Shown: piece by piece, positions 24,237-44,750 of the stretch
Position numbering within the stretch: position 1 is the stretch's first letter
Layout of the letters: each line of letters begins with the position of its first letter
DNA from: an uncultured Chlorobiota bacterium
Lineage (GTDB): Bacteria > Bacteroidota > Ignavibacteria > UBA10030 > UBA6906
Assembly: GCA_900696645.1 (NCBI GenBank)
Contig: CAADGV010000006.1
Location: forward strand, 1-64,000
DNA length: 64,000 nt
Direction of reading: 5' to 3'
Position numbers and translations under genes: made by a program
Notes under the pieces: generated by a model
What the model saw: the letters and a program-made list of their open reading frames with translations, nothing else
The model's database searches: none
Told to the model about the DNA's origin: nothing

Positions 24237-24252
24237 TCTCGCAGTGTCCTAG

Positions 24253-24325
<73 letters not shown>

Positions 24326-24383: not shown

Positions 24384-26672
24384 TTATTCCACGTACTGTG
24401 ATAGAAGAAACGGGGTAGAGACAGACTTTCTCCGTTTTTTAATCTTCATTCCAAAACCTTGTTTGAGCGTCTTTTCATCGTATCCCAGCGGCAACAAAAG
24501 CGTTTCAACGGACTTGAACACCATCTCAATATACTTCTCAATGTCATAGCCGTCATCAAAGGAGTAGAATGTCAGCGGCCTTGCTTTCTCCGGTTTCTTC
24601 TTACCGGTCGAGTCCAGCAAGACATACTCAATCGATTCTCCGGGCTGCAGCTTCATTCCTGCTTCATCGAGCGCTTTTGCGACTTCCGCATTTGCGCTTC
24701 GATTTTTGTACTCGGACGCTTCTTGCGAGATATGCCGCCGGATGACCAGTTCCATCGGATCAGCTTTTCCTGACCGAAGCAGCTCGACATATTCTTTCGC
24801 TTTTGCGAGTGCAGCTGATGCAAGGGTCTTGACTTCAGCAATAGTCTCAGCTTCACCGAGAATCTCCAACATCTCTCCCTGCATGCGTTTGATAAGCTTT
24901 GGCGTATCGCGTCGTCTGACTTCAATCCCGCGGACCTTAATCTCCTTGCTCGTATAAAATCCAACATACCGGTTCGCCGTTGGTATGTTTGGATCCATCT
25001 TTGAGGAAGGGAACAGTATCCAGTTGTAAATTCCCTCAAGTGAAATTTCTATCTTTGTTTGTGAACTCACTTCTTCGCAGAGAGCTTCGTAGTCGGCTTC
25101 TGATGCACCCTCTTTTTTGAGCCACATGCAATCAACGATTGCGTGAAGGAACTTGTATCCGCGAGATTCGGCAATTTCCTTTGCCGTCAGGATGGCGTCG
25201 CGTGAGAACGCATTCACGGATTCATGCGCCTCGATTTTGCCGAAACGGGCGTTCTTGTATCCCAAATAGCCGAAGCAGGTGACGAGCATCCACTTGAGCG
25301 CATTCTGCCGGCGATCGTAGATGTGCCATGTTGCATCTCCCGACTTCTTCAATCTCTTTTTTTCTTTCTTGTAGAAGGATCGCTTTGCAACAATTGGACG
25401 CAGGGTTTCCGGGACGATACCTTTTCGTTTTGTACAGATGGTGTATTTCAACTCAGGCACGGCTTCGTTGTTGCAGCATCTGCAATTCACCGTTTCGGGC
25501 GAGACGTTGTGTTGGACCATGATAGTAGGATACATCGAAACAAAATCCAGCTCGCCAATCTGCTCGTGATAACCCATAATGGGCTGAAAGATGAGTCCGC
25601 CGCGGTCGGCAAGAAGCAGCGTCGCAGCCGATTTGAATTCCTCCGGCTCACGCTTCTTTGCAGGAATCAAATAGTTGTTCCGGTATGCCCACGAGAGTTG
25701 CATTGACGAAAGCGCCGTACCGATGGTCGAGCGGGATTGGTGCTGAACGGGAAGCTGCGTGAGGCGGGCAATCTCCACAACGCCGTCGAGACTCGCTTCG
25801 CCCATCATGAATGAGTTTTCGGTATCGAGGTGCCAGCGCCCTGCAAGCTCGAATGCGCCGTCCTTGTGCACAATCTTTCCGTACACAAAATAGCTCGACT
25901 CCTTCGTTGTGAAGTAACCGGCCCGTTGGTCACGATTGAGGAGAAGGGGAATCTTCAGTTCAGCAGAAAGCTTTACCAACAGCGGAAGCAGAATGGCATC
26001 ACCGTATTCCGTCAGCACAATATCTGGGTCGCAGCGTTTCAGGTGAGAGTTTACGGCGTGCAGAATTTCGGCGGGCTGGTCGTTTTCGAGACTGTATGTT
26101 TCTCCCTCGTAGCTGATTTCAATCTGATATGATTTTCGGAATTTGGGAGAAACGAAATCGGGCCTGTTCATCAGCTTCATTGTTGAAAGGGGAGGCATCG
26201 AATACTCAGAGGCGTCGTATGTGTCGTGCAGCTGCCATTCTGTCAACATCCCGCTCTCGTTGATGCTGTATTCGCCGAACGCAAGAGGGAAGAGTCCCGT
26301 TTCATACAGGTAGATTTGTTGTGTCTGAATATCCGAGTTAAAGAAGACGTAGTGGGGAAAATGCCGTTCGAGCCGCTGCACTACCTGTTTGAAGCGAAGC
26401 GTGTCGTGAACGTTGATGCGAAGAACATTCCATTCTTCGTTGGAATACAATTCCCGTCGCATCACCCGGTCGAGCGTTATCTTGAAGGGAAATGATTTGA
26501 CGAGAGCCGCAACCCGTCGTTCTTCTTCAGGGGAAATATGCATGAAGAACGACGGAACAAAGGGCGTGAATGCCCGATGCTTCACGCCCTCCTTGTCAAT
26601 CAACCAAATAGTAATGCCATCGGAGGAAGGATAGATGTCAAACAGCCAGCCGGTGATGATGGAAGGTGACAC
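24384..26672 (-). CDS. B-family DNA polymerase homologue with altered catalytic motifs
   Basis: Protein of 762 residues with the PolB architecture: N-terminal domain, exonuclease-like domain (about 170-330) and polymerase domain (about 350-740). Motif A LDFVSMYP (375-382) keeps its aspartate. Motif B reads KWMLVTCFGYLGY from K460, with V where Asn is usual. Motif C is HAIVDCMW (510-517), keeping the first aspartate but having Met instead of the second of DTD. In the exonuclease domain QIEIS (183-187) replaces DIET, and TEYGDAILLP (221-230) replaces the ExoII Asn and Asp. Cys397, 399, 400 and 413 may bind zinc. GTG start. It is the last gene of a four-gene cassette. Proofreading is very probably lost; polymerase activity is uncertain. 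Archaeal-type inactivated PolB groups are the nearest parallel I recall. Confidence 0.9.
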   Translation of the reverse strand: MSPSIITGWLFDIYPSSDGITIWLIDKEGVKHRAFTPFVPSFFMHISPEEERRVAALVKSFPFKITLDRVMRRELYSNEEWNVLRINVHDTLRFKQVVQRLERHFPHYVFFNSDIQTQQIYLYETGLFPLAFGEYSINESGMLTEWQLHDTYDASEYSMPPLSTMKLMNRPDFVSPKFRKSYQIEISYEGETYSLENDQPAEILHAVNSHLKRCDPDIVLTEYGDAILLPLLVKLSAELKIPLLLNRDQRAGYFTTKESSYFVYGKIVHKDGAFELAGRWHLDTENSFMMGEASLDGVVEIARLTQLPVQHQSRSTIGTALSSMQLSWAYRNNYLIPAKKREPEEFKSAATLLLADRGGLIFQPIMGYHEQIGELDFVSMYPTIMVQHNVSPETVNCRCCNNEAVPELKYTICTKRKGIVPETLRPIVAKRSFYKKEKKRLKKSGDATWHIYDRRQNALKWMLVTCFGYLGYKNARFGKIEAHESVNAFSRDAILTAKEIAESRGYKFLHAIVDCMWLKKEGASEADYEALCEEVSSQTKIEISLEGIYNWILFPSSKMDPNIPTANRYVGFYTSKEIKVRGIEVRRRDTPKLIKRMQGEMLEILGEAETIAEVKTLASAALAKAKEYVELLRSGKADPMELVIRRHISQEASEYKNRSANAEVAKALDEAGMKLQPGESIEYVLLDSTGKKKPEKARPLTFYSFDDGYDIEKYIEMVFKSVETLLLPLGYDEKTLKQGFGMKIKKRRKSVSTPFLLSQYVE

Positions 26673-26705
26673 ACGTTCTCCCCAGCGCCCGAAAACGCAT
26701 TTCGG

Positions 26706-26990
26706 TTATGCTGCATCGTGATAGTTTTGTTTGCCGGCCTGTTCAAGCCTCTCGACGCGCTTTTTGAGATTACCGATCACCCTCTGCTGCGATACCAACA
26801 TTGCCATCGCAATGCTTTCAAACGGAATCGGGCGGGCGGCGTAGGCGCAACTCGCAAGCTGCAGACGCGCTGCTCGGAACAATTCGTCAAGCGCTTCCTG
26901 GTCTTCCTGCCGCAACCCGCGGCGGAATTTCGTCCAGCTTTCCATCTCCTGCTGGATCACCATCGTAAATGTCGGTACGGTTCTGCCCAT
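26706..26990 (-). CDS. Small protein of the PolB cassette, unknown function
   Basis: Not recognised. It has 94 residues, mostly helical in character, with a likely C-terminal coiled coil (VIGNLKKRVERLEQAGKQ, about 70-87) and no cysteine cluster or membrane segment. It lies between the RecA-like gene and the polymerase-like gene, 33 bases before the latter, in the same direction. A role as a linker or accessory subunit for the polymerase homologue is inferred from position only. Confidence 0.65.
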   Translation of the reverse strand: MGRTVPTFTMVIQQEMESWTKFRRGLRQEDQEALDELFRAARLQLASCAYAARPIPFESIAMAMLVSQQRVIGNLKKRVERLEQAGKQNYHDAA

Positions 26991-27008
26991 GATTTACCCC
27001 TCGGATAA

Positions 27009-27094
27009 ATTTTCCGCGGAGGCGCAGAGATCACGGAGGAAAATCTCCTATAGTCATCTCGGCGATCTCGGCGTCTCTGCGGTGAGACTTTTCT
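27009..27094. repeat. Dispersed imperfect palindromic repeat, copy 1
   Basis: Imperfect palindrome with arms built on TTCCGCGGAGGCGCAGAG and its counterpart CGGCGTCTCTGCGGTGAG. It shares these arms with copies at 35568, 36447 and 44636. It overlaps the 3' end of the RecA-like gene (stop at 27054), whose last residues SLTAETPRSPR are encoded by the repeat. Confidence 0.75.
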
Positions 27095-27776
27095 TTTCCC
27101 TCTCACCCCTTTCACAAACAATGCGCTGCCCCGAGTCGGTATCCACCACACGATACACCTCATCCATTGCCAGCCGGAGTTTCGGAAACAGCGCATTGCG
27201 TTCGTTCGATGCCAATTTCATATCCAGTGACGCAAGCAGGAGGGAGATATTGTTCTGCTTGAGTTTGTGCAGAGCGGCGATCACCCGTTGCAGACTCGCC
27301 TTCACCTCAAACAGCGGTGCCTGCTCGTCATAGTACGTGTCTAACAACCCGAAGATGATGACGACGGGGGAGTGTTTTTTCTGCACAAACGCCGGAAGCC
27401 GCTCGGTAATCGTTGCCTCCATTTGGTAGCAGGTAAATGCACGGGAGATGAAAATACTCTCTAACAATTGTTCGGGAGTTACCCGCCGCTTTGCTAAACG
27501 CCGACTTGTCACTTTTCTCGCGAACTCGGCAATATAGTATGCGTCGAACCTGTTGGTGCCGTCCACCAGCGTAATGGGTACACCGGCAAGCAGCGCATGC
27601 GAGGCGGCGTACAGCGACAGGCGAAAGACACTCCGGTCGCCATACAAACAGTACAACTTGCCCGGCGGCGCCGTGTTGAACTTTTGCAGCACGGTTGTGT
27701 ACGGAACAAGCGTTTGTCCGGCCTGCATTGCGGGTTGCGGCTGAACCGTTGCGTGCCTGTTATACTGCCAGTGCAT
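27054..27776 (-). CDS. RecA-fold ATPase-like protein lacking a canonical Walker A
   Basis: 240 residues with the look of a RecA/RadA-paralogue core: strand-loop-helix LYCLYGDRSVFRLSLYAA (about 40-57) where Walker A should be but without GK[ST], a strand ITLVDGTNRFDAYYIAEFA (about 69-87), and a Walker-B-like hydrophobic strand VVIIFGLLDTYYDE (about 136-149). The C-terminal tail from about residue 228 is encoded by a dispersed repeat and is probably not ancestral. It overlaps the zinc-ribbon gene by 17 bases. Placement with a polymerase homologue recalls ImuA of the ImuA-ImuB-DnaE2 mutagenesis cassette. Function is inferred, not shown. Confidence 0.7.
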   Translation of the reverse strand: MHWQYNRHATVQPQPAMQAGQTLVPYTTVLQKFNTAPPGKLYCLYGDRSVFRLSLYAASHALLAGVPITLVDGTNRFDAYYIAEFARKVTSRRLAKRRVTPEQLLESIFISRAFTCYQMEATITERLPAFVQKKHSPVVIIFGLLDTYYDEQAPLFEVKASLQRVIAALHKLKQNNISLLLASLDMKLASNERNALFPKLRLAMDEVYRVVDTDSGQRIVCERGEREKKSLTAETPRSPR

Positions 27777-27999
27777 ACTCCCTCGCGGCGCATTCCCCGC
27801 AGATGCCGTCCGGCGTGTAGCGGACGGAACATTCCCGACATACTACCAGATTTTCTTCGAGACAGGATCGGCAATACACTTCATTCAGCGAGTCGTCCAT
27901 CCGGCCGCGGAGTTCGTGCAGTTCCCGCTCGCCAAGCGGATGCTCGCACAGGCAACACGTTGCCGTGGAAAGAGTTAGCACACGTTCGACGTTTTCCAT
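27760..27999 (-). CDS. Small zinc-ribbon protein, first gene of the PolB cassette
   Basis: 79 residues with CCLCEHPLGERE (C..C), CRSCLEE, CRECSVRY and CGEC, eight or more cysteines arranged as two zinc-binding ribbons. ATG 27999 is chosen because AAAGGTGATG precedes it and the promoter's expected transcript start is near 28033, which excludes the longer open frame reaching 28221. Its end overlaps the RecA-like gene. It may recruit the other cassette products to DNA or act as a protein-contact module; no family was recognised. Confidence 0.75.
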   Translation of the reverse strand: MENVERVLTLSTATCCLCEHPLGERELHELRGRMDDSLNEVYCRSCLEENLVVCRECSVRYTPDGICGECAAREYALAV

Positions 28000-28039: not shown

Positions 28040-28068
28040 ATGATACGACAAATTTGTCGTCTTGTCAA
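28040..28068 (-). promoter_or_regulatory. Promoter of the PolB cassette
   Basis: On the - strand TTGACA (28063-28068) and TATCAT (28040-28045) stand 17 bases apart, a near-consensus vegetative promoter. The spacer is almost wholly filled by a perfect 16-bp palindrome, so a bound repressor would block polymerase. The start codon of the first gene is about 40 bases downstream of the -10 box. Confidence 0.85.
28045..28060. promoter_or_regulatory. Palindromic operator 1 of the PolB cassette
   Basis: ACGACAAATTTGTCGT is a perfect 16-bp palindrome located between the -35 and -10 boxes. Position and symmetry indicate a dimeric repressor. The repressor is not identified; a LexA-like or HTH-type regulator is possible. 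Confidence 0.8.
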
Positions 28069-28079
28069 GAGTCGAAATA

Positions 28080-28092
28080 ACAAATTTGTCGT
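28080..28092. promoter_or_regulatory. Partial operator 2 upstream of the PolB cassette promoter
   Basis: ACAAATTTGTCGT repeats 13 of the 16 bases of operator 1, with centres 32 bp apart, about three helical turns, so two dimers would sit on the same DNA face. It also lies just ahead of the divergent sensor kinase gene. Confidence 0.65.
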
Positions 28093-35567: not shown

Positions 35568-35673
35568 GTTTTCACCGCCGAGGCGCGGAGGGTTTTTCAC
35601 TGATCTGAAATCTCTGCGCCCTCACCGTCTCCGCGGTGAATTTTCTTGGTGATTCTGCGTGTGCTTAATGGAT
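35568..35673. repeat. Dispersed imperfect palindromic repeat, copy 2
   Basis: TTCACCGCCGAGGCGCGGAG on one arm and CGTCTCCGCGGTGAA on the other, followed by a tail TTTTCTTGGTGATTCTGCGT and TGCTTAATGGAT. The tail is shared with copies at 36447 and 44636. It lies between the T9SS propeller gene and the small TA gene. Confidence 0.8.
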
Positions 35674-36446: not shown

Positions 36447-36560
36447 AGTTTTCATCGCCGAGGCACGGAGGATGTGGAGGGTTTTCACAGATCTGAAATC
36501 TCTGTGTCCTCAGCGTCTCTGCGGTGAATTTTCTTGGTGATTCTTCGTGTTCTCGGCGTC
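36447..36560. repeat. Dispersed imperfect palindromic repeat, copy 4
   Basis: TTTTCATCGCCGAGGCACGG and CAGCGTCTCTGCGGTGAATT as arms, with tail TTTTCTTGGTGATTCTTCGT. It ends at the stop codon of the truncated DUF2652-like frame (36559-36561). Confidence 0.8.
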
Positions 36561-44635: not shown

Positions 44636-44750
44636 GTTACACCGCTGAGGTGCAGAGGGCGCGGATGGTTTTTAGCGTTTCTGAATCTCAGCGCCCTCGG
44701 CGTCTCCGCGGTGAATTTTCCGAGTGATTCTTCGTGTGCTTAATGGATCA
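44636..44750. repeat. Dispersed imperfect palindromic repeat, copy 5
   Basis: ACACCGCTGAGGTGCAGAGG and CGGCGTCTCCGCGGTGAATT as arms, and the tail GTGATTCTTCGTGTGCTTAA also seen at 35568-35673. It fills the gap between two convergent genes. Confidence 0.8.

Follow-up and report, generated by a model that had tools for sequence, protein, structure and literature searches.

Which system is encoded by a compact cluster of four minus-strand genes around a non-canonical B-family DNA polymerase homologue, and how might it be switched on? The cluster lies in a 64,000-nucleotide stretch (the window) of contig CAADGV010000006.1 from an uncultured Chlorobiota bacterium of the class Ignavibacteria, and a sequence-only reading had proposed that it forms a repair or translesion module in which a PolB-type subunit works with a RecA-like partner, by analogy with mutagenesis cassettes under SOS control. 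All four open reading frames were confirmed between positions 27999 and 24384, with the overlap and short gaps that had been described (ZnR/iRadA overlap of 17 nt, gaps of 63 nt between iRadA and PPB2 and of 33 nt between PPB2 and PolB2). They encode a zinc-ribbon protein (ZnR), a RadA-like protein (iRadA), a small helical protein (PPB2) and the polymerase homologue; homologues of all four occur in other genomes, and the order of the last three is kept. Judged by its sequence, iRadA-PPB2-PolB2 is the known bacterial PolB2 mutasome operon (PMC4104785, PMC11791011), because it combines the gene order of the trio, the MGRT arm of PPB2, a RadA with a dead P-loop, a PolB2-type motif C and the loss of the exonuclease residues. 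We consider it likely (probability roughly 0.78) that the operon specifies a bacterial PolB2 mutasome and is induced by DNA damage under a LexA-like S24 repressor.

The polymerase matched the Pfam family DNA_pol_B (9.8e-38), and the NCBIfam models of archaeal-type PolBs fitted it far better than the Pol II models, which scored far under their cut-off (72 bits against 570). Its AlphaFold2 model (predicted local distance difference test score, pLDDT, 78) was closest to archaeal PolBs, which were also the best PDB matches by profile (1e-68) and by fold (7.4e-39). Individual residues were read from an alignment of 22 homologues (A1) and from a profile alignment with a KOD-type PolB. In motif C the DxD is changed to I/V-x-D (KOD D540 corresponds to I/V512 and D542 to D514), the first aspartate being absent in 22/22 aligned polymerases, and the ExoI D/E and ExoII N/D positions are substituted in the profile alignment. 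The sequence-only reading was thus right to call the PolB non-canonical. Invariant in the 22 sequences are the motif A residue D376, the second motif C aspartate D514, the motif B residue K460 and the D(K/R) loop motif (D356-R357). The lost first aspartate and exonuclease residues would also suit a catalytically dead PolB2 that serves as a structural scaffold or, together with iRadA, as a regulator of replication restart, and inactivation with a role in replication regulation was the original proposal (PMC4104785). We regard this as unlikely, since the invariance of D376, D514 and K460 indicates that catalytic residues are under selection and since Dpo2 of Sulfolobus islandicus, in which motif C is altered in a like manner (IID), is a robust polymerase that also extends mismatches (PMC8764526). 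The archaeal enzyme is a damage-induced extender polymerase required for targeted mutagenesis (PMC7390963, PMC8764526). The proposal of a repair or translesion module is supported in that it fits both this known PolB2 and the trio mutasome predicted in archaea and bacteria (PMC4104785, PMC11791011).

The RecA fold assigned to the second gene was borne out by a profile search, in which RadA chains matched iRadA (best E 4.6e-5), and by an AlphaFold2 model (pLDDT 87) with RadA/RAD51 as best PDB matches (E about 1e-9). A GK[TS] P-loop was found in 0/25 homologues of the iRadA family. At the end of the window's iRadA gene lies a dispersed repeat (27014-27083), which is about 70 bases long, has inverted arms (ACCGCAGAGACGC ... 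CTCTGCGCCTCCGCGG) and supplies both the last residues of iRadA and most of the spacer to PPB2; further copies are found near 35574-35638, 36508-36526 and 44642-44712. PPB2 starts with MGRT, of which MGR is invariant in 16 aligned sequences, and an N-terminal MGRT arm is a described feature of this protein (PMC11791011); against PDB sequences it gave chance-level matches only. Pfam searches returned no match for ZnR, PPB2 or the 66-residue protein introduced below. A clamp-binding motif in PolB2 or iRadA is known from a fraction of the members of this system. Read by eye from the alignments, several relatives carry QxLPLF-like tails on PolB2 or iRadA, and none is obvious in the window proteins.

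The relatives found by sequence likewise put the genome in Ignavibacteria (Bacteroidota). The sequence-only reading had made conservation of the neighbours its check, and they proved to be kept with the polymerase. PolB2 is present in 49/60 genomes of relatives, and iRadA and PPB2 adjoin it in unchanged order in 36/40 of the relatives' loci, two of the four exceptions being contig ends. The same order was found in most loci of sufficient reach in a wider named set including Chloroflexi and Nitrospirota, and in bacteria it is described as always iRadA-PPB2-PolB2 (PMC11791011). Eight genomes, all from the same family (G000, G001, G003, G005, G008, G015, G018, G020), have ZnR as the gene next to the promoter; others lack it, for which reason we regard it as an accessory. 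It may act as an adaptor that contacts DNA or the clamp. A fixed four-gene unit was accordingly rejected in favour of a three-gene core with optional ZnR. The sequence-only reading named no characterised bacterial system with this exact set; the core trio had already been described.

The most informative new feature, absent from the earlier reading, is the promoter-operator at 28092-28040. A predicted operator with the consensus ACGACA-N4-TGTCGT sits in the spacer of a near-consensus promoter, and a second copy lies upstream. A search with the composite of promoter and operator, TTGACANNACGACANNNNTGTCGTAT, returned three sites in the 4.2-Mb genome (≤3 mismatches), all of them exact, and 0 with the reversed pattern; by our estimate, chance alone would give about 1e-5 exact sites. 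The three sites precede the PolB2 operon, a DUF72 gene transcribed divergently from an XRE + S24 gene, and a cupin gene followed by a gene for a 66-residue protein. Because of the three sites against 0 in the control, the composite with its -35 and -10 elements was taken as specific. The core palindrome alone was rejected as too loose for a genome search (20 sites against 16 for the reversed control at 1 mismatch), and most palindrome sites with 2 mismatches were dropped as intragenic. In the relatives, 68 composite sites (≤2 mismatches) were found in 40/60 genomes against 1 in the reversed control, nearly all of them at PolB2 operons and at S24-DUF72. The second copy recurs 31-32 bp upstream (≤4 mismatches) in 61/75 distinct sites, and any other offset in at most 2/75. 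In one genome (G046; L104, L152) the operon is split and the operator stands at both parts, PolB2 behind its own and iRadA behind another.

The candidate repressor is the S24 protein of 220 residues, encoded 71 kb from the PolB2 operon and divergently from the DUF72 gene. It combines an HTH_3 domain (5.7e-11) with a Peptidase_S24 domain (2.2e-26), and its residues for self-cleavage are intact: across 29 homologues the Gly of the Ala-Gly site and the catalytic Ser and Lys never vary, and the Ala is kept in 90%. It was the sole match when the genome was scanned with LexA models and lay under the LexA cut-off, so that the scan found no canonical LexA; RecA is present. Among the 60 genomes, 38 hold both S24 and operator, 4 S24 only, 2 the operator only and 16 neither (Fisher p 4e-9), a co-occurrence confounded by phylogeny as the operator is missing mostly in two families. 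S24 promoters often contain palindromes. That a very strongly conserved DNA switch in front of the operon is common to the repressor and few other genes suggests that mutagenic repair is turned on on its own after damage.

The palindrome might alternatively be the operator of another repressor, for instance a BlaI/CopY-like one that answers to a signal other than damage, with S24 merely co-regulated. ACA-N4-TGT palindromes resemble the operators of other small repressors, one of the regulated units contains a ChrR-type cupin, and the binding of S24 to the operator is predicted from sequence. We nevertheless hold this explanation to be improbable: the site separates S24 from its divergent neighbour, be that DUF72 or iRadA, weaker near-palindromes persist upstream of S24 in two genomes without PolB2 (G037, G056; L275, L278), and lexA is linked to the PolB2 trio in some other bacteria (PMC4104785, PMC11791011). 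That the polymerase is an ordinary DNA polymerase II, or belongs to a selfish element and has its neighbours by accident, would agree with the B-family fold and is very improbable given the low Pol II scores, the inactive exonuclease, the conserved neighbours, the adjoining tRNA gene and the lack of recognised mobile-element genes among the listed open reading frames around the operon. The E. coli-type enzyme in particular was rejected for want of an active exonuclease, an intact DxD and adequate Pol II scores; an ordinary Pol II was one of the outcomes that the sequence-only reading had named as refuting it. An ImuA-ImuB-DnaE2 cassette was rejected as well, the operon having neither a C-family DnaE2 nor ImuB and the genome's single Y-family gene lying elsewhere.

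Table 1. Coordinates of the operon, its predicted control region and its downstream boundary in the window.
Feature	Position	Strand	Remarks
Promoter TTGACA-N17-TATCAT	28040..28068	-	11/12 consensus positions; composite recurs in relatives
Predicted operator, perfect palindrome ACGACAAATTTGTCGT	28045..28060	-	within the -35/-10 spacer
Second predicted operator copy, ACGACAAATTTGTTAT on the - strand	28077..28092	-	differs from the palindrome at 2 positions; 32 bp upstream of the first copy
ZnR, zinc-ribbon gene	27760..27999	-	79 residues, four CxxC; optional first gene of the operon
iRadA	27054..27776	-	240 residues; RadA/Rad51 fold without N-terminal domain and without P-loop
PPB2 (arCOG07300-like)	26706..26990	-	94 residues; N-terminal MGRT arm
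PolB2-type polymerase	24384..26672	-	762 residues, GTG start
tRNA-Met (CAT)	24252..24325	-	59 nt downstream of the polymerase gene; downstream boundary of the operon

Under the damage-induced mutasome reading, dimers of the XRE + S24 repressor would occupy the tandem palindromes, which overlap with the promoter of the operon, and thereby block RNA polymerase. Upon DNA damage, RecA filaments would promote self-cleavage of S24, releasing the operon, DUF72 and one small unit. PolB2, which is predicted to have no proofreading, would be held by the catalytically dead iRadA and by PPB2, as in the PolB2-iRadA-PPB2(3) complex expected of such mutasomes, and the resulting complex may extend primers past lesions and so give rise to damage-induced mutations. 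Insertion opposite the lesion would come first, by a Y-family polymerase or another enzyme, followed by PolB2 extension (cf. PMC8721586).

Several points weigh against this reading. The S24-operator co-occurrence is confounded by phylogeny. No good operator stands at recA or at the genome's only Y-family polymerase gene; both genes were rejected as regulon members, so that the proposed regulon departs from classical SOS control. The S24 repressor could answer to something other than RecA. In the window, moreover, the C terminus of iRadA is replaced by the dispersed repeat, and the tails of iRadA and PolB2 contain no clear QLxLF clamp motif. The SOS control envisaged in the sequence-only reading gains sequence support from the operator and its linkage to S24, with recA outside the predicted regulon. 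We give even odds to a further proposal, namely that Ignavibacteria have a dedicated mutagenesis regulon apart from recA and other repair, in which S24 controls nothing but the PolB2 mutasome, DUF72 and a small protein or two (the zinc ribbon and the MFHAPYGG protein) through one fixed promoter-operator, some lineages adding a Y-family inserter to make an inserter/extender unit.

A candidate for such an inserter, a Y-family polymerase, is encoded within the operon of nine family members (G003, G006, G008, G009, G012, G014, G015, G018, G020), where the Y-family gene is usually followed by a DUF72-like gene; the operons of G003 and G014 are only partly visible at contig ends. From its sequence the in-operon DinB of these nine appears active. 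The pairing of DinB and PolB2 in one operon matches the switch reconstituted in vitro, in which Dpo4 inserts and Dpo2 extends (PMC8721586). The single Y-family gene of the window genome stands at another locus, is 25% identical to the in-operon type and has no operator. The order operator, ZnR (in some), Y-family polymerase, DUF72-like gene and iRadA-PPB2-PolB2 was observed at six loci (L067, L068, L069, L072, L165, L168), and an arrangement with two translesion polymerases also at L075, L099, L150 and L167.

Further observations concern the operator outside the PolB2 operon. The third composite site of the genome (G000:C9:116822-117460; L048 1823-2463) precedes the ChrR-type cupin gene and then the gene for the 66-residue protein, which starts with MFHAPYGG. 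In relatives (L135, L138) the latter gene lies directly behind the operator (G001) or behind the operator and a DUF72-like gene (G002). At L152 of the genome with the split operon, the operator is followed by a gene that we take to be of the DUF5131/Gp37-Gp68 type, and then by the S24 repressor and iRadA. Genomes from a different family within the order, and some relatives (L092-L097, L218, L224, L233), lack the operator. In several of these the PolB2 operon adjoins an S24 gene of divergent sequence (about 31% identity), and a different operator is therefore probably used there.

The core system is known; the novelty lies in the operator and the few genes predicted to be under it, in the zinc ribbon as an accessory, and in the relatives' operons with two polymerases. 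In the literature consulted, bacterial PolB2 mutasomes are predicted systems without bacterial experiments and without a described switch, and no published LexA motif for Ignavibacteria was found in it. The operator defined here predicts DUF72, the zinc-ribbon protein, the 66-residue protein and, in relatives, DinB as members of the response. An operon with DinB and PolB2 would be the genetic counterpart of the archaeal Dpo4/Dpo2 inserter/extender hand-over seen in vitro, and a regulon without recA would, if true, mean that cells can control stress-induced mutation separately from general repair.

The closest known system is the bacterial operon of Timinskas 2025 and Makarova 2014 (PMC11791011, PMC4104785), which has the same three genes in the same order, the MGRT arm, a dead RadA, I/V-x-D, a dead exonuclease, and DUF72 and a LexA-like gene in its regulon. 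The present operon differs in its extra first gene ZnR, in the lack of a clear clamp motif in the window proteins, and in that repressor and DUF72 lie 71 kb away under a common operator. The operator sequence and the regulon are not described in the available text of these two papers; DinB-containing operons do not appear in the main text of PMC11791011, and ZnR or DinB neighbours may stand in the supplements of either. The Sulfolobus islandicus Dpo2 operon encodes a polymerase of homologous type, partnered by a dead RadA and an arCOG07300 protein, and is damage-induced (PMC7390963); it is archaeal, Orc1-2 regulated and PCNA-based, whereas the present bacterial operon has a predicted repressor of the S24 type. 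The non-canonical CI-type LexA of Bacteroidetes (PMC8565304) resembles our candidate in its XRE/CI helix-turn-helix and S24 domains, in multiple palindromic operators at promoters and in the control of translesion polymerases. Its operators are GGA-N5-TCC or CTAA-N5-TTAG in contrast to ACGACA-N4-TGTCGT, and it controls a canonical SOS network including recA. The set of targets here is much smaller, with only 1-3 composite sites per genome centred on PolB2 and none at recA in the window's genome, and Ignavibacteria are unmentioned in that study. ImuA-ImuB-DnaE2 and Pol V (UmuD'2C-RecA), finally, likewise join an error-prone polymerase to a RecA-family protein under a self-cleaving repressor, but the present system is built from a B-family polymerase, a dead RadA-type partner of archaeal origin and an unrelated small subunit.

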